Source of the DNA: Chloroflexota bacterium
GTDB lineage: Bacteria; Chloroflexota; Limnocylindria; Limnocylindrales; CSP1-4
Assembly (NCBI GenBank): GCA_005883615.1
Contig: VBEC01000023.1
Location: 1 to 64,000 of the forward strand
Length of the DNA stretch: 64,000 nt
Direction: 5' to 3'
The translations under genes were made by a program, and so were the position numbers. The notes beneath the pieces were generated by a model. The model worked only from the letters and a program-made list of their open reading frames with translations. It did not search any database and was not told where the DNA came from. Below are positions 14,718 through 29,375 of the stretch, in pieces. Each line of letters opens with the position of its first letter. Position 1 is the stretch's first letter.

Positions 14718-17700
14718 TCACGCATGCTCGGTCAACCCGAGCCGGATGGCGACGGCGGCCGCCTCGACGCGCCCCGAAACGTCGAGCTTTGCGAGGATGT
14801 TGCCTACGTGCACGCCGACCGTCTTCTGGCTGATGAACAGCCGCTCCCCGATCTCCCGGTTGGTGCGTCCCTGGGCGATCAGGTAGAGGACCTCCTTTTC
14901 GCGCGGGCTCAGGCCGAATGTGTCCTGCTTGCGGGCCGAGACCTCGCCAACGAACTCGCGCACCACCGACGATCCAGGGCCGCCCGAGCCGCCGACGGCC
15001 GGCGACGCGAGTGCCGCCCGGGTCGCTACGGCGAGGTCGGCCGCAAGCGACGGCGTCCCATTGCCATCGCTGCCGTGCCCGTTGCGATCCGTTGCAGATG
15101 AAGCCGGGACCTCCGCGCCGTCATGCCCGCCGAGTGCGGCGCGGCCGCCCACCGTCTCGCTCGGGGCCGACGTCTCCTCCACGGTGGGCTCGGGAAGGGT
15201 GATCAATGCCCGCCGGCCGAGCTCGCGGAGCTCCTTCATCAACGGCCGTGCCCCGAGCTCGCGGGCGATCTCGAACGATTCCAGGAGAGGGCCGCGAGCC
15301 GCGGTCCGCGCGACGCGAGCGTCGTCAGCCGCCGCCAGCGCGGCCTCCGCCTGACGCCAGCGGGCGGACGCCACCTGATAGCGCGCTCCGAGTGCCGCCC
15401 ACGTCTCGGCGGCCGAGGCCCAGACCGCAGGTTCGTAGCGATCGTCGCCGAGCATCCGGTGCGCCCGGGCCGTCGCGAGATAGGCGTCGGCCTCCCTCCG
15501 GGAGCCCGTCGTCCGCGGGACCCCGGCGCGATGGACCATCGCCTCTGCCTCCGCAAGAACGCGGGACGTGCGCTCACGCGCTGCGGCGATCGGGGCGAGA
15601 TCTCGTCCGCCACGGGCGTCCGCGACGACTGCGGCGTCGACCCGCGCCACCGTGGCGGCGAGCTTCGCCGCCAGCGCCCAGTCCTCGGTGACGCGCGTCA
15701 TCTCCCATGCGCGGGCCACGGCCCGACGGGCGTCGACCAGGTCGCCATGCCAAAGGGCGTAGGCGGCTGCTGCCTGGAAGATCGGCACGGCGAATTGAGC
15801 GTCGCCCAGGGTCTCCACCTGGAGCAGCAGCTGGCCAAGGAGCCGGCCGGCGAGCTCACCGCCGTCCGACTCGATCTCGACGGTGGCCAGGTTGCCCACC
15901 GAATTGATCAGTGCGAAGCCGGCCGGGCTCCACTCGAGCGCCGTGGCCGAGAGCTCACGCGATTCGCGCCAGCGGCCCAGGAGGAACAGCGAATCGGCGG
16001 CATTCCCGCGCAGGAAGTTGCCATACACGGATTCGAGGCCGCTGTCGCGCGCCTCGACGATCCCCCCGAAGGCGACATCGACCGCCTCTTCTCGACGGCC
16101 GAGCAGGTCCAGCACGGTTGTGAGGTTTGCCGTGGCGCGGAAGATGGCCTCGAGATCGCCGATTGCCTGCGCGCGCCGTCGAGCATCCGTTAGCACCGCG
16201 ACGCCGGATTCGGGATCGTCCCCCCAGCCCTTGCACACGCCGACCGTGATGAGGGCGTGAACCTCCTGGACCGCGCCGGCCTCGCCCATCGACCGCGCGA
16301 TCGACATGGCATCGGCTGCCAGTCGCTCGCCCTCCGAGAAGACGCCCTGGATCATCTTGACCTGGCCAAGCGAGCCCAGGACGGCAGCCCGCTCGACCGA
16401 GGCCTCGCGCGGCGTGAGCTCCACCGCCCGGCGGTGGGCAAGGAGAGCCCCATCGGTGTCGCCCGCGGCCCGCCGGTAACGGCCGAGTCGGTCGTACAGC
16501 CGGCCGAGGCTCGCCCGATCCCGTCGTTCGTCGGACCTGCTGATGGCGGCATCCGCAAAGGCCACTGCACGCTCGGGGTGTCCGGCGGCAAATGCCAGCT
16601 CCGCGGCGCGTGCCTGTAGCTCGTGCAGGACAGGCGGCGTGACGGAAACCAGGCCGCCTGCAGCTGGTTGACCCGGCAGCTCTGTTAATTCGAGCGCCAG
16701 CTCGAGGTGCTCAAGGGCGTCCTGGGGCGCATCGGCCTCTTCGGCGAGGACCGCTGCGTCCAGAGCCGCCGCACGGGCATTGATCGTGTCGTGCCCGGCA
16801 AGCCAGTAGCGCTCGGCGGCGAACGGCGATGCTGCGAGTCCGTGGGCCAGCGCCGAGAGGTGGCGGCGCCGCTGGAACGGAAGGAGGTCGGCCGCGACCG
16901 CACGAGCGATACCCACGTGGCGGAATGCGATGAGGCTGTCCGGCCGGAGTTCGCCGGCCTTCGGGAGGGCTCGCACCATGCCAGCCTCGACGGCCTCTGA
17001 CAGGCCGGCCAACAGGTCCGCGTCCAGCACACCCTCGCCCCTGCGAGGGCCGGTCGACGAACGCGGAGGCAGACCGACCCTGCCTTCCTCGAGGGCCCGG
17101 GCGGCTGTTGCGAGCTCGGTTGCTGTAAGGGCTGCTTCGGCCGGAGCAAGAAGCCGCAGCACGCGGCGGCACTCGGGAGAGCGAGTCGCCAGTCGCGCCG
17201 CCAGGATCTCGGCGAGCGAGCCGGTTGCGGCCGCCGGAAAACCCTCCCGACGTAGCGCGAGGAGCTCCTCGGCGATCAGCGGATTACCCCGACAGCGCTC
17301 CGTCAGGAGCAGCAGGACCGAGGCGGACGGCCGCTCGCCTTCGATCCCCTCGAACAGGGTGGCAAGCTCGTCGCGATCGAGTCCACCGAGGTCGATCTGC
17401 TCTGGTGGCCGCGGAGAATCGGCCATGAGAGCGAGGTCGGCGTGGAGGGCATGGGCGCGCGTGATCTCGTCCGGCTGGTAGGTGGCAATCAGGCACAGCC
17501 GCTGGGGACGCGAGACCCTGGCGAGGAACGCCGCGAGCGCTCTCGTGGCGCCATCGGCGGTATGAAGATCCTCGAGCATGAGCACGATCGGACGTTGCTC
17601 TCCGAGGCGCGTGAGCAATCCGTGGATGCCCTCCAGAACGCGACCCTGGCGCCGTTCGGGCGCGATGATCACCGGTCGATCCGGAAGGAGCCCGATAGCC

Positions 17701-18062
17701 TCGAGCCGCCTCGCGAGCCCCGGTACGAGCCGGGCCAGCGCAGGCGCCGCCGGTCCGGCAAGGTGGGACAGATCGTCATCCGAAGCGGCCTGGAGGACGG
17801 GCTGCAGTGCTGCGACAACCAGCGCGTATGGGCGCCCCAGGGTCGCGGCCGTGGGCTCGCCGCGAACCACGGTGAAGGGCTCGCTCATGCCGGCCAGGCG
17901 CTGCTGGGCTTCGGTCAGGAGCCGCGATACGCCGATGCCGCTGCTCCCTGCCACCAGGACAGTCGTGGGGCGTCCGACTGACGCCTGATCGAGCGCGATC
18001 GCAAGCTGAGTGAGCTCGCGCTCACGCCCGACGAACCGCGCGCTCGTGAAGCCAGCGGGCAT
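14718..18062 (-). CDS. Large ATPase-type LuxR transcriptional regulator (LAL-like), degenerate Walker A
   Basis: 1114-aa regulator in three parts. Residues 8-300 are a STAND/AAA-like NTPase domain starting FVGRERELTQL. A long Ala-rich helical region of TPR-like repeats fills about 420-950. A LuxR-type HTH at the C-terminus reads FGLSPREKEVLYLIAQG, then TNREIGERLFISQKTVGVHV. Walker B is intact (PIVLMLEDLHTAD). Walker A reads GSSGIGVSR at 39-47, with Val45 in place of the lysine that binds phosphate, so ATP hydrolysis is probably lost or altered. A TAGAAT hexamer ends six bases before the ATG, suggesting a leaderless message. It diverges from a DNA methyltransferase gene; the ligand and targets are unknown. 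Confidence 0.9.
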   Translation of the reverse strand: MPAGFTSARFVGRERELTQLAIALDQASVGRPTTVLVAGSSGIGVSRLLTEAQQRLAGMSEPFTVVRGEPTAATLGRPYALVVAALQPVLQAASDDDLSHLAGPAAPALARLVPGLARRLEAIGLLPDRPVIIAPERRQGRVLEGIHGLLTRLGEQRPIVLMLEDLHTADGATRALAAFLARVSRPQRLCLIATYQPDEITRAHALHADLALMADSPRPPEQIDLGGLDRDELATLFEGIEGERPSASVLLLLTERCRGNPLIAEELLALRREGFPAAATGSLAEILAARLATRSPECRRVLRLLAPAEAALTATELATAARALEEGRVGLPPRSSTGPRRGEGVLDADLLAGLSEAVEAGMVRALPKAGELRPDSLIAFRHVGIARAVAADLLPFQRRRHLSALAHGLAASPFAAERYWLAGHDTINARAAALDAAVLAEEADAPQDALEHLELALELTELPGQPAAGGLVSVTPPVLHELQARAAELAFAAGHPERAVAFADAAISRSDERRDRASLGRLYDRLGRYRRAAGDTDGALLAHRRAVELTPREASVERAAVLGSLGQVKMIQGVFSEGERLAADAMSIARSMGEAGAVQEVHALITVGVCKGWGDDPESGVAVLTDARRRAQAIGDLEAIFRATANLTTVLDLLGRREEAVDVAFGGIVEARDSGLESVYGNFLRGNAADSLFLLGRWRESRELSATALEWSPAGFALINSVGNLATVEIESDGGELAGRLLGQLLLQVETLGDAQFAVPIFQAAAAYALWHGDLVDARRAVARAWEMTRVTEDWALAAKLAATVARVDAAVVADARGGRDLAPIAAARERTSRVLAEAEAMVHRAGVPRTTGSRREADAYLATARAHRMLGDDRYEPAVWASAAETWAALGARYQVASARWRQAEAALAAADDARVARTAARGPLLESFEIARELGARPLMKELRELGRRALITLPEPTVEETSAPSETVGGRAALGGHDGAEVPASSATDRNGHGSDGNGTPSLAADLAVATRAALASPAVGGSGGPGSSVVREFVGEVSARKQDTFGLSPREKEVLYLIAQGRTNREIGERLFISQKTVGVHVGNILAKLDVSGRVEAAAVAIRLGLTEHA

Positions 18063-21686: not shown

Positions 21687-22796
21687 TCAGCCCTGGCCGG
21701 GCGAGGTTGTCGGAGCCGGCGAGGCCCCCGGCAGGGGCGGAAACAGGCCTGCGTTGAATCTCCCGAAACCACGACCCGCGAGAACCGTGGACGCATCGAC
21801 GGACCCGTCGGCATTCCGCGTGCCTTCCACAACGATCGTCATCCCGACCGTTATGTCCGAGACGTTTGGATCGCTGACTCCCTGCACCCGGAACGTCGTG
21901 CCACTGCTCACCCGAACCTTGGCCATGGTTCCATCGAACTGTCTGATCGTCAGCGTGCTGCCGGTCCTGGCCGTTACCTGGCCCGCGATATGGGGCAGCA
22001 GGATGTGCACGGCCGCGGCGGTCAGCGAGTTGCCGGTTCCGCGAGTGCCTTCGACGAAGACCTCGCTACCGACCTTCACGTCGGACTTTGCGCCCGTGCC
22101 CTTGCTTCCCAGGCGGTAGCTGGTCGAGCCGTTGACGGCGATCGCCCAGGACGTTCCATCCCGGCTGTTCAGGGTGAAGCCGTCGCCGGTCACGGCTGTC
22201 ACCGTGCCCGCGACCTGCGGCAGCATGACGTCGATCTCATCGATCGGGTAGCTCCCGTCGGACGCTCGGGTCTCTCGAAACCGGATCGTGTCGCCCACGC
22301 TCAGGTCCCCCAGGCTGATCTTCTGGCCGGCCTTGAGGAGGGAGGTGGTGCTCCCGACGGTGATCGTCCGTGTCCAGCCGTCGTCGGTCCTCAGCGAAAG
22401 GTTCGAGCCGTCGATTGCGGTGATCGTGATCGGCCCGAATCCCGGACCCTTGAAGCCACGGCCATCGGCGAAGCCAGGCCCGCCGAACAGTCCCGGGCCG
22501 CGGAACGCTCCGGGGCCGTGGAGCCTGCCGGGGCCACCTTCGACTGTTCTCGGGGCGGTGCTCGCGGCTGGGGAGGTGCCGGGGCTCGGCGACGCGGCCA
22601 TCGTCAGCGCTGCGCTGACGAGCACGATGGCGAAGGCTCCCAGGACGACGGCGATCCGAAGGATATCGGGGCCCCTGAGCTTCCCGGAGAAGCTCGCGCC
22701 GGTCGGCTGGGCCGTCGGCGTGGGCTGGGCCGTCGGCGTGGGCTGGGCCGTCGGCGTCGGCTGGTTCGATTCGACGGGTGCGATTGGCTCGGTCAT
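21687..22796 (-). CDS. Membrane-anchored protein with repeated DUF5666-like beta domains
   Basis: 369 aa, function unknown. The cytoplasmic N-terminus carries a proline-rich repeat (PTPTAQ units, residues 13-31). A membrane helix IAVVLGAFAIVLVSAALTMA (48-67) is followed by a Gly/Pro/Phe-rich linker (GPGLFGGPGFADGRGFKGPG). The outer region has three related beta units: ITAIDGSNLSLRTDDGWTRTI, GTVTAVTGDGFTLNSRDG and GQVTARTGSTLTIRQFDG. Each is followed by a SVGDTIRF/KVGSEVFVEG/TVGMTIVVEG strand. This is the DUF5666 pattern, an OB-like extracytoplasmic module. AGAAGGA precedes the ATG. Confidence 0.75.
   Translation of the reverse strand: MTEPIAPVESNQPTPTAQPTPTAQPTPTAQPTGASFSGKLRGPDILRIAVVLGAFAIVLVSAALTMAASPSPGTSPAASTAPRTVEGGPGRLHGPGAFRGPGLFGGPGFADGRGFKGPGFGPITITAIDGSNLSLRTDDGWTRTITVGSTTSLLKAGQKISLGDLSVGDTIRFRETRASDGSYPIDEIDVMLPQVAGTVTAVTGDGFTLNSRDGTSWAIAVNGSTSYRLGSKGTGAKSDVKVGSEVFVEGTRGTGNSLTAAAVHILLPHIAGQVTARTGSTLTIRQFDGTMAKVRVSSGTTFRVQGVSDPNVSDITVGMTIVVEGTRNADGSVDASTVLAGRGFGRFNAGLFPPLPGASPAPTTSPGQG
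22705..22764. repeat. 18-bp minisatellite inside coding sequence
   Basis: Three near-perfect tandem copies of GGCTGGGCCGTCGGCGTG (22705-22758) plus a partial copy. They encode the PTPTAQ repeat of the membrane-anchored protein on the minus strand. The period keeps the frame, so copy number can vary without truncation. Confidence 0.95.
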
Positions 22797-22906: not shown

Positions 22907-22983
22907 TGGTAGGGGAGGGTGGACTCGAACCACCGACAAGCGGTGTATAAGACCGCTGCTCTAACCCACTGAGCTACTCCCCC
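22907..22983 (-). tRNA. tRNA-Ile with anticodon UAU
   Basis: Complete 77-nt cloverleaf on the minus strand with encoded CCA. Acceptor arms are GGGGGAG and CTCCCCT, with a G-U pair at 1-72. The D arm is GCTC/GAGC with a 9-base loop. The anticodon stem GCGGT/ACCGC encloses the 7-base loop CTTATAC, giving anticodon TAT (UAU). The variable loop is TTGTC, and the T arm is GGTGG-TTCGAGT-CCACC. UAU reads the AUA isoleucine codon. Most bacteria read AUA with a CAU tRNA modified by TilS, so an encoded UAU anticodon is uncommon. Confidence 0.93.
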
Positions 22984-23184
22984 ACGCGGTCATTCTACGT
23001 TCCGGTTGGCTCATTCGGGCAGTGGGCTGTCCCGTTCGTCGGGACTTCGAGCAGCGACCCGGCGCAGCCGACATCCCACGTTCAGGGCCAAGCCGATCGG
23101 TAGCGCACTGGCCCGAGCCACGCCTGCCGGGCCACCGGGGAGCCCGCCGGATCTTGGGCTCGAGGGCGCGTGCAGGCGGTCGGG

Positions 23185-27012: not shown

Positions 27013-28713
27013 CTACTTCCTGGCGCCGGCGGTCACCAGGTGCTCGGCGCCCTGCTGGAGGCCGAGGTACAGCCGTTCCACGGTTTCGAGCGTGTCGATC
27101 TCTGCAGCCGACTTGTCCGTTCGCAACTGGACGATCCGCGGGAAGCGCAGCGCGAAGCCGGAGCGGTGACGATTGGAACGCATGATGACGTCGAAGGCGA
27201 CCTCCACCACCACGGTGGGCTCGACCTGGCGATAGCGCCCGAACTGGGCGATCGTGTGAGATTCGAACCAGCGCGTCATCTCGGCAATCTCGGCGTCCGT
27301 CAGTCCGCTGTAGGCCTTGCCGATGTTCACCAGCCCACCGGTCGCCTCGTCGCGGACGGCAAACGTGTAGTCCGATAGCACGCCATGGCGCTTGCCGTGG
27401 CCGACCTCGACGCCGACGACGACGCAATCGAGCGTGGCCAACGCCTTCTTCATCTTCAGCCAGCCCAGGCCGCGCCGACCCGGCGTATACGCGCTGTCCG
27501 GGTCCTTCACCATCAGCCCTTCGTTATTGCGGGCCCTCGCCTCGGCGAATACGCGCTCCAACCCATCGGCCGAGTCGACGGTCATCAGGTGTGATAGCGC
27601 GAAGACGCCACCGTCGTCGGCGAGCGGCAGCTGCAACGCCTCAAGGCGGCGGCGCCGCTCGCGAAGGGGCACCGTTAGGAGTGGCTGCAGCTCGCTGCCC
27701 GGGCCGGCCTCGTTCAGCACAAGCGCGTCCCAGGCCACGAAGATCACCGGGACGGTCGCCTGCAGGGTGAGCGACGGGTCCTTCCGGCCGAGGCGGGTCT
27801 GGAGCGCCAGAAACGGCAGGACGTTGCCATCGAGATATGCCAGGACCTCCCCGTCCAGGATGCCTTCCCAGGCGAGATCGGCTGCGCCCCGCACGATTTC
27901 GGGAAACTGGCCGGAAACGTCATGGAGGTCCCGGCTGTAAAGACGAGCGCTGCTCCCCCGGCGGTGGAGCTGGGCCCTTATCCCGTCGTACTTGTCCTCC
28001 ACCCACACCGTGGGGCCAAGCCGAGCGATGATCTCGTCTGCATCCTCGGCCGGGCTGGCGAGCATGTATTTGAGCGGGTGGAAGAGCGTCGGCGCCGCCT
28101 CTGCAAGGCGATCGGTCGCGGCGAGCACGGCCGTCTCGCCGATGTCGCCGATCAGCATGCCGGCCGTCTTGACTTCATCGATCGGGCGCCCGAACGCCCT
28201 GGCGACGGCAGCCTCGAGCAACCCTTCGCGCAGCCCGATGCGGAGCTCGCCGGTGAGGACCTTGACCACGTACTTCGCGGTCAGTGGATCGCAGCGCGTC
28301 AGGAGCGCCTCGAACAGGGCGCGCTTCGCGGCCGGCCCCGAAGCGGTCTCGAGCGTGGCGAAGACCGCCGCCACTTCGGCGAGCGACGGTGCCACGTCCC
28401 CGGCCGGCTGCGCTGCTCGGAGGGAGAGCACGGCCGCCACGGCCTGCCCCAGATCGGAGCTCCGGTCATACGCCCGCGCGATTGCGTCGGCCGGCGCGTC
28501 GGAGGCACGGGTCACGGCCGTTGCGATCGTGGCCCAGCCCAGCCCCGTGGCGCGCTGGTCGGCCTGGGCGAACGGGCGACCGCTGAAGAAGACGGCAGCC
28601 GTGGGGAGGTCCGTGGCCGGCAGGCGGCCCAGGTAATCGGCCAGAAGGGCGGTCTTTTCGGAGGTCCGTGTCGTCGCTGCAACGCGCTCGGCGACCTCGC
28701 TCCAGCGGCGCAT
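27013..28713 (-). CDS. ATP-dependent DNA ligase (archaeal-type)
   Basis: 566-aa ligase with the three-domain layout of archaeal/eukaryal replicative-type enzymes. An N-terminal helical DNA-binding domain fills about 1-215. The adenylation domain has motif I EDKYDGIRAQLH, with the nucleophilic Lys near 241. The OB domain ends with FALRFPRIVQLRTDK. Motif III (SARLYSRDLHDVSGQFPEI), motif IV (EGILDGEVLAYL) and motif V (GLMVKDPDSAYTPGRRGLGW, LKMKK) are all present. Most bacteria also have an NAD-dependent LigA, so this is probably a repair ligase. ATG 28713 is chosen because the helical domain starts there and a TATACC box lies nine bases upstream. Confidence 0.93.
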   Translation of the reverse strand: MRRWSEVAERVAATTRTSEKTALLADYLGRLPATDLPTAAVFFSGRPFAQADQRATGLGWATIATAVTRASDAPADAIARAYDRSSDLGQAVAAVLSLRAAQPAGDVAPSLAEVAAVFATLETASGPAAKRALFEALLTRCDPLTAKYVVKVLTGELRIGLREGLLEAAVARAFGRPIDEVKTAGMLIGDIGETAVLAATDRLAEAAPTLFHPLKYMLASPAEDADEIIARLGPTVWVEDKYDGIRAQLHRRGSSARLYSRDLHDVSGQFPEIVRGAADLAWEGILDGEVLAYLDGNVLPFLALQTRLGRKDPSLTLQATVPVIFVAWDALVLNEAGPGSELQPLLTVPLRERRRRLEALQLPLADDGGVFALSHLMTVDSADGLERVFAEARARNNEGLMVKDPDSAYTPGRRGLGWLKMKKALATLDCVVVGVEVGHGKRHGVLSDYTFAVRDEATGGLVNIGKAYSGLTDAEIAEMTRWFESHTIAQFGRYRQVEPTVVVEVAFDVIMRSNRHRSGFALRFPRIVQLRTDKSAAEIDTLETVERLYLGLQQGAEHLVTAGARK

Positions 28714-28739
28714 GGCGGCGATGGTATACCGTGACCTGA
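28714..28739. promoter_or_regulatory. Symmetric divergent promoter core GGTATACC between ligase and GNAT genes
   Basis: The perfect palindrome GGTATACC (28723-28730) is centred between two divergent ATG codons, with exactly nine bases on each side. Read either way it offers TATACC as a -10 box at leaderless spacing. Neither gene has a Shine-Dalgarno sequence in the gap. Confidence 0.6.
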
Positions 28740-29375
28740 ATGCACCCTCGCGCGTGGTTTCCCGAGCAGCTGATCGGGCACCGCGTCGTTCTTCGACGAC
28801 ACGGGCCGGGCAATCTGGCGGCATTCAAACGCTGGTACAGCGACCCCGACATTGCGCGCCTGACGCGCTACCAGGAGGGGCCGATGCATCCGGCCGAGAT
28901 CGAGCGGTTCTTCGCGGCCCGGGTCGTTGGACCCGACTCGATGGCTCTGGCGGTCCACCTCCGAGATTCGGGGCGGCTCATCGGCAGTTGCGCGCTGAGT
29001 CAGCTCGATGGCGACAACGGCTCAGCCCTGTACCACATCACGCTCGGCGAAAAGGACACGTGGGGACAGGGCTATGGCACGGAGGCGAGCGAGCTCATGC
29101 TCGAGCATGCCTTCCGGGTCCTCGCCCTGCATCGCGTCGCCCTGTCGGTCTTCGAATTCAACGAGCGTGCGGTGAAGTCGTACCTCAAGGTGGGCTTCGT
29201 CATCGAGGGCCGCGCCAGGGACGCAATCTGGCGTGATGGGCGCTACTGGGACGAGATCTCGATGAGCATCCTCGAGTCGGACTGGCGTCACCGCGAAAGC
29301 GTGCCCGCGCCCGACGAGCCGGGTCGCCGCACGACTCGGCCCTGGGACAAGCTCACGGCCGGGATCGGCCGATAG
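28740..29375 (+). CDS. GNAT acetyltransferase, RimJ/RimL-like
   Basis: 211-aa acetyl-CoA-dependent N-acetyltransferase of the Acetyltransf_3 branch (ribosomal-protein or small-amine acetylation). It opens LIGHRVVLRRHGPGNLAAF, then WYSDPDIARLTRYQEG, the typical RimJ/RimL start. The acetyl-CoA loop is WGQGYGTEASELML, with the Q-x-x-G-x-A-like signature as GQGYGT. AFRVLALHRVALSVFEFN and RAVKSYLKVGFVIEGRARD are the conserved C-terminal strand and helix. After the domain there is a short basic, Pro-rich tail. The target is unknown. Ten bases separate it from the small gene downstream. Confidence 0.9.
   Translation: MHPRAWFPEQLIGHRVVLRRHGPGNLAAFKRWYSDPDIARLTRYQEGPMHPAEIERFFAARVVGPDSMALAVHLRDSGRLIGSCALSQLDGDNGSALYHITLGEKDTWGQGYGTEASELMLEHAFRVLALHRVALSVFEFNERAVKSYLKVGFVIEGRARDAIWRDGRYWDEISMSILESDWRHRESVPAPDEPGRRTTRPWDKLTAGIGR

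Follow-up and report, generated by a model that had tools for sequence, protein, structure and literature searches.

Most bacteria read the isoleucine codon AUA via tRNA-Ile2(CAU), in which lysidine is made by TilS. An excerpt of PMC11938285 describes TilS as essential and widely distributed. As far as excerpts of the relevant sources go, Mycoplasma mobile has tRNA-Ile(UAU) and no TilS (Taniguchi 2013; PMC4013482, PMC4014445), M. mobile and three hemoplasmas are without TilS (PMC4014445), and TAT tRNAs occur in 19 species (PMC4013482). Similarly, tRNA-Ile3(UAU) replaces tRNA-Ile2(CAU) in 17 bacterial genomes, of Bifidobacterium, Mycoplasma, and Neorickettsia species (excerpt of PMC8450103), and Lactobacillus plantarum has redundant tRNA-Ile with CAU and UAU anticodons (cited in an excerpt of PMC9976931).

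Here, we describe a tRNA-Ile(UAU) gene in a 64,000-nucleotide stretch of DNA (the window) from a Chloroflexota bacterium of the order Limnocylindrales. We regard it as a working AUA-decoding tRNA-Ile with an encoded UAU anticodon that would need no lysidine, in a lineage that appears to have lost both TilS and tRNA-Ile2(CAU); the probability of this reading is put at about 0.86. The system would do the same job as the standard lysidine system, reading AUA as isoleucine, but no TilS and no CAU isoleucine tRNA were found, and its AUA reader is without C4-G69 and C5-G68. As in M. mobile, an encoded UAU anticodon is combined with loss of tilS and with AUA kept as isoleucine, the last point coming here from a small alignment sample. 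In M. mobile, the setting of the loss is the reduced Mollicutes, and the excerpts available describe the tRNA as a C-to-U change at position 34. In contrast, genomes in the order measure about 3 Mb in some cases and 1 Mb in others, and its tRNA body lacks both the TilS pairs and A38. Its IleRS is of type 2, which we take to be unlike the M. mobile enzyme. The species of Bifidobacterium, Mycoplasma, and Neorickettsia share with the order a UAU tRNA in place of the CAU isoleucine tRNA, although they belong to different phyla. L. plantarum likewise is a bacterium with an encoded UAU tRNA-Ile, but its partial description places a CAU tRNA beside the UAU one, whereas neither tilS nor tRNA-Ile2(CAU) was found in the genome studied here.

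A limited literature search on lysidine, tilS, and UAU tRNA in this order found no report, which is weak evidence of absence, and the main text of PMC13212565 on Limnocylindria makes no mention of tRNA, tilS, or anticodon. The replacement at this locus is thus of a known kind, and the search found no report of it in this order; the tRNA body is unusual and the IleRS is of type 2.

The tRNA-Ile(UAU) gene

The original prediction placed at this locus a tRNA with a UAU anticodon, in the loop CTTATAC closed by a perfect 5-bp anticodon stem. All three are present, on the minus strand, by ARAGORN, Rfam, and the sequence itself (Table 1). ARAGORN calls a minus-strand tRNA-Ile with anticodon tat, the sole tRNA gene in the window, and the Rfam model RF00005 scores it at 71.1 bits (gathering score 29, E 1.6e-13). 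In the minus-strand reading, the anticodon stem is GCGGT/ACCGC (5 bp around the loop), the T arm is GGTGG/CCACC, a D arm is present, and the acceptor stem GGGGGAG/CTCCCCT contains a G1-U72 pair. The gene stands alone; a DUF5666 gene (21690-22796) on the same strand starts 110 bp downstream.

Table 1. Features of the tRNA-Ile(UAU) gene, in positions of the window.
Feature	Position	Strand	Basis or remark
tRNA-Ile(UAU) gene, 77 nt including encoded CCA	22907..22983	-	ARAGORN, Rfam
Anticodon TAT (UAU), positions 34-36	22947..22949	-	ARAGORN and sequence reading
Anticodon loop CTTATAC (C32 ... A37 C38)	22945..22951	-	Sequence reading
5' acceptor strand GGGGGAG	22977..22983	-	G4, G5 versus C4, C5 of lysidine-type tRNA-Ile2
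3' acceptor strand CTCCCCT, U72 opposite G1	22911..22917	-	Sequence and relatives
Discriminator A73	22910	-	Directly after the 3' acceptor strand
Encoded CCA end	22907..22909	-	Sequence reading
TAGAAT, possible -10 promoter element, 8 bp before the tRNA gene	22992..22997	-	By eye only

Elsewhere in the window, this bacterium carries on the minus strand a gene for an ATP-dependent DNA ligase (27016-28824), in which N-terminal, catalytic, and C-terminal domains are all recognized by Pfam. A 1114-aa ORF on the same strand (14718-18062) begins like an ATPase and ends in a helix-turn-helix of LuxR type, as judged by eye.

Conservation of the gene was followed in 36 UAU tRNAs of the order, out of 45 distinct ones. 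Of 756 stem cells in these relatives, 99.3% pair, as against 44-58% when one side of the stem is slid by 1-3 columns. Both sides have changed in 11 of the 21 pairs (7.8 in shuffles), and the covariation score is 0.409, compared with 0.114 for shuffles and at most 0.085 for the slid controls. Variation is greatest in the anticodon arm and the T arm, where it occurs by paired changes. Because the stems covary, the gene is judged to be functional.

A different view would make the gene a pseudogene or inert copy, with AUA read in some other way or hardly used. AUA is indeed very rare, with 13 occurrences in 22,387 sampled codons of this genome (0.58 per 1000, by simple gene picking), a consensus scan around the gene found neither a promoter nor a terminator, and the minimum free energy fold of the tRNA taken alone shifts the D arm, although it keeps the acceptor, anticodon, and T stems (z -2.63; 3 of 200 shuffles fold equally well). 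Against this stand the order-wide conservation with its two-sided changes, the intact CCA end and T and D loops, and the fact that AUA does occur in genes, which a GAU anticodon should pair with poorly. We consider an inert copy scarcely credible.

The G1-U72 pair had also been pointed out as unusual. The pair is there, but it is no oddity in this lineage: the 36 relatives have G-U in 31, G-C in four, and A-U in one. The elongator tRNA-Met of the same genome likewise has G1-U72, and U72 occurs in 11 of the 12 elongator tRNA-Met genes of the order that were read (this genome's and ten of 11 others). With G-U at this position in 31 of 36 relatives, G1-U72 as the mark of a defective tRNA was ruled out; on these comparisons, it is a lineage trait and not a defect.

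tilS and CAU tRNAs in the genome, the order, and the phylum

The draft genome (3.06 Mb, 112 contigs, 94% complete) yields 45 tRNA matches. Two have a CAU anticodon, one of initiator type (CGCGGGG...) and one of elongator Met type (GGCGGAG...CTCCGCT); a third CAU gene, or any lysidine-type tRNA-Ile2(CAU), is absent among the 45 tRNAs of this 94%-complete genome. No tilS match exceeds the cut-off in the genome, the best match to the TilS model reaching 20.3 bits against a cut-off of 93.6, and this weak match is the GMP synthase GuaA (792 bits). The check that the original prediction proposed, a search for tilS and an isoleucine-type CAU tRNA, therefore found neither, both CAU tRNAs being Met types. 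tRNA-Ile(GAU) and tRNA-Ala(UGC) were also not found in this draft. Their genes usually lie within the rRNA operon and are often missed by drafts. As a result, a single absence is weak, and it is the order-wide pattern that carries the case.

That pattern was sought in 177 genomes of the class, mostly drafts, of which 126 belong to the order and 51 lie outside it. The exact UAU-tRNA pattern occurs in 109 of the 126 and in none of the 51; a rescan allowing two mismatches, applied to the 17 misses of the order only, added at least seven (with T-arm mismatches), giving at least 116 of 126. The ten order genomes without a UAU match are each listed as less than 90% complete, whereas all 40 that are at least 90% complete have the UAU tRNA, two of them by the mismatch rescan. 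TilS over the cut-off is found in none of the 126 order genomes, as against 38 of the 51 outside, which supports the lysidine-free reading beyond the single genome. Weak TilS matches (19.7-27.6 bits) occur in 42 of the 126; of these 42, five were checked and proved to be not divergent TilS but GuaA (three) or LarE (two). Since the 126 genomes share ancestry, the swap should be counted as a single event and not as 126.

The genomes of the order vary in size. In the sampled families, those of f1, to which this genome belongs, are mostly 2-4 Mb (68-71% GC in the sampled stretches) and those of f2 are 0.8-1.2 Mb (62% GC). For Limnocylindria, an excerpt of PMC13212565 gives 2.4-3.2 Mb and 68% GC for the families P2-11E, QHBO01, and CSP1-4, and 1.3 Mb and 63% GC for Limnocylindraceae, the sister of CSP1-4. 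The tRNA-Ile(GAU) pattern is present in 12 of the 126 order genomes, and 11 of the 12 loci read as tRNA-Ile(GAU), each beside tRNA-Ala(UGC); the order therefore does have tRNA-Ile(GAU).

ARAGORN labels any CAU tRNA as Met, and CAU tRNAs were typed from their strings and genes. The order genomes have 0 to 3 CAU matches each. Among the matches listed (G000-G098), the strings are of initiator or elongator type and none is of Ile2 type; in the three-CAU genomes G046, G052, G072, G073, and G085, the extra match is a second copy of the initiator or elongator type. Of 12 CAU stretches that were read, 11 gave a non-initiator CAU gene, none with C4. The sister families have a third CAU tRNA that begins with GGGCC, seen as strings in 12 of the 31 genomes scanned and read whole as five genes, which we take for tRNA-Ile2. 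It was picked by its GGGCC start, so that C4 and C5 in it are no independent result. At L082-L085, L219, L223, L229, and L230, all from sister families, tilS is closely preceded by a CAU tRNA read as elongator Met. Two order contigs carry two UAU tRNA matches each, 6.5-9.4 kb apart (G003:C11 at 55046 and 64461; G066:C95 at 9205 and 15722). The same tRNA body occurs in the public Chloroflexi/Chloroflexota loci L115, L122, L171, L185, and L197.

A sample of 400 genomes drawn evenly from the phylum (38 of the order and 362 others) gave the exact UAU pattern in 34 of 38 and 25 of 362, and TilS over the cut-off in none of 38 and 323 of 362, respectively. Ten of the 25 UAU-bearing genomes outside the order keep TilS, and the other 15, in the families f44 (nine), f11 (four), and f75 (two), have no TilS match. 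A UAU tRNA alone is therefore no proof of TilS loss.

This bears on the view that the draft has missed a lysidine system, to which the UAU tRNA would be a redundant addition, as in L. plantarum. Apart from these ten genomes, such a view could draw on the 94% completeness of the genome, which also lacks tRNA-Ile(GAU) and tRNA-Ala(UGC), and on two order genomes (G116 and G122) with three CAU matches each, CAU types having been read among the matches listed (G000-G098). It is nevertheless very unlikely, given the contrast in tilS between the order and its class relatives, which are mostly drafts too, and given that no CAU string of Ile2 type appears among the matches listed for the order. The original prediction had held that tilS together with a lysidine-type tRNA-Ile2(CAU) elsewhere would make this a redundant or non-functional copy. 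That test was run and did not refute the lysidine-free reading; with its occurrence across the order, its conservation, and its covariation, the UAU tRNA does not look redundant or dying.

tRNA body, IleRS, and the meaning of AUA

Based on these comparisons, the preferred reading, a lysidine-free tRNA-Ile, would work as follows. The encoded UAU anticodon would pair with AUA directly, so that lysidine at position 34 would be unneeded, and TilS and its substrate tRNA-Ile2(CAU) would have been lost. U34 in place of C34 would set the UAU tRNA apart from elongator tRNA-Met(CAU); MetRS should reject it and the type-2 IleRS should charge it with isoleucine. tRNA-Ile(GAU) would read AUC and AUU, and misreading of AUG by U34 would somehow be kept low. 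The swap would go back to a single event in the ancestor of the order, made easier because AUA was already very rare.

The body of the tRNA was compared in 47 UAU genes (45 distinct sequences) from 51 order loci. Each of the 45 carries G4-C69 and G5-C68 in place of the TilS-recognized pairs C4-G69 and C5-G68; position 38 is C in 24, U in 21, and A in none. A38 is an isoleucine determinant. TilS binding is reported to need C4-G69 and C5-G68 of tRNA-Ile2 (excerpt of PMC12069591), and C4-G69 is counted among the isoleucine determinants in the available part of PMC9976931. The tRNA-Ile(GAU) of the order has C4 in four of four distinct copies. By sequence, then, the AUA reader of the order carries none of the TilS marks, and 4-69 sets it apart from its partner tRNA-Ile(GAU). 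With neither C4-G69 nor A38 present, charging of the UAU tRNA by IleRS is assumed.

Outside the order, 11 of the 14 distinct UAU tRNA copies from Chloroflexota carry C4, and A38 is seen in 24 of 25 genomes. In a midpoint-rooted tree of the short tRNA genes, 13 of these 14 group with five tRNA-Ile2(CAU) of the sister families (bootstrap 81), as expected from a plain C34-to-U change, whereas the UAU tRNAs of the order fall outside this group with weak support (67). UAU tRNAs of f44, f11, and f75 (L335-L342, L352, and L353) look like tRNA-Ile2 with a plain C34-to-U change, without a TilS match. Within this genome, the tRNA nearest to the UAU tRNA is the elongator tRNA-Met (83% identity), with the next at 73%; the UAU tRNAs of some relatives in the order are nearest to tRNA-Ile2(CAU) of the sister families, at up to 82% identity. 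Position by position, 3-70, 28-42, and 43 are Ile2-like in most order tRNAs, 5-68 is like both tRNA-Met and tRNA-Ile(GAU), and 72 is Met-like.

Such similarity to tRNA-Met raises the question of whether AUA has been reassigned to methionine, with a tRNA-Met copy that acquired U34 still charged by MetRS, as in many mitochondria. The meaning of AUA was examined by aligning order frames (13 f2 stretches; 36 f1 loci and the window) to 20 stretches of the sister families, with the best-scoring frame kept at each place. In f1, the residues aligned to AUA in 16 rows are Ile in 50.0%, Leu in 29.5%, and Val in 12.5%, with Met outside the six commonest residues; these rows represent 15 distinct sites (L296 and L238 of G031 share one), and 12 of the 16 rows come from G036 (L300), none from the genome studied here. 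For comparison, f1 ATC sites align with Ile in 47.0%, Leu in 20.2%, and Val in 17.3%, and f1 ATG sites with Met in 47.1%. In f2, 28 AUA sites, 11 or 12 of them from one stretch (L287), align with Val in 21.5%, Ile in 20.6%, and Leu in 16.4%, a weaker isoleucine signal than at ATC sites, which align with Ile in 44.2%. Met is the majority residue at only two of the 28, which represent a single protein position seen in two genomes. An AUA count over all frames, which gave mostly Val, was rejected, since antisense and shifted frames turn the Tyr codons TAT and TAC into ATA and GTA.

In this thin sample, which comes mostly from two genomes, AUA looks like Ile and seldom like Met. The small sample, the 83% identity to tRNA-Met, and the G1-U72 pair common to the UAU tRNA and the elongator tRNA-Met are what a reassignment to methionine has in its favor; the alignments and the need of MetRS for C34 weigh against it and make it highly improbable. 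Per 1000 codons of the sampled stretches, AUA occurs 1.12 times in other f1 genomes, 1.06 times in f2, and 0.57 and 0.73 times in sister families. Because it is rare in the order as well as in the sister families, AUA was probably rare already when TilS was lost.

The IleRS of the order (a 1167-aa frame in L050) scores 622.9 against the ileS cut-off of 621.4, a narrow pass. Its nearest solved relatives are the 1032-residue IleRS entries 8c8u to 8c9d, followed by 1ile and larger enzymes, some of them named as cytoplasmic. The IleRS of the sister families is of the same kind, with 44-56% identity among the matches listed, so that the type-2 enzyme is probably older than the AUA switch. Comparison of 49 order sequences with ten of f5 and ten of f3/f4 found 33 columns that separate the order from the sisters. 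Fifteen lie in a 46-residue insert (191-236 in L050), present in the 49 order sequences and in none of the 20 sisters. Another small insert (516-531) accounts for five, and the C-terminal domain PF19302 (978-1142) for three (1056, 1085, and 1091). Position 1085, in the motif EG-x-xRE, is Asp in 49 of 49 order sequences and Leu in 19 of 20 sisters; in solved enzymes it is Val (8c8w) or Leu (8wnd). Asp1085 is put forward as a candidate for the residue that reads U34; it is a candidate and not evidence.

A fuller scenario can be offered only tentatively, and we think it rather unlikely to hold in all its parts. A single ancestral switch to lysidine-free AUA decoding, order-wide and in full-sized genomes, might have come about without a simple C34-to-U change in tRNA-Ile2. 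A different body (G4-C69, G5-C68, C/U38, G1-U72), possibly that of an elongator tRNA-Met after duplication or of some other donor, would have been taken up, and the C-terminal domain of the type-2 IleRS would have been retuned for U34 (Leu/Val to Asp at 1085).

Wider distribution and significance

In public genomes, UAU tRNAs with C or U at position 38 were found at at least 116 loci (L086-L201), 113 of 116 being read as tRNA-Ile(UAU). Many of these loci are labelled as Patescibacteria (Nomura-, Taylor-, Kaiser-, Uhr-, Saccharibacteria, among others), with a small number from archaea or elsewhere. In Patescibacteria, AUA may commonly be decoded without lysidine. An IleRS-like stretch occurs at two of these loci, L146 and L154; L154 is a 5.1-kb Diapherotrites contig on which such a stretch (29.5% over 871 residues) accompanies a UAU tRNA.

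The replacements that excerpts of the sources describe form limited groups, of 17 bacterial genomes (PMC8450103) and of 19 species (PMC4013482). Here, the swap is seen in nearly all of 126 genomes from one order, both in its family of about 3 Mb and in that of about 1 Mb. Since the family with genomes of about 3 Mb shows it too, TilS loss would have needed no genome reduction. With further UAU-bearing families in Chloroflexota and with Patescibacteria, how IleRS learns to accept a UAU anticodon becomes testable across several events. The finding also advises caution against taking tilS as a universal bacterial marker or target.
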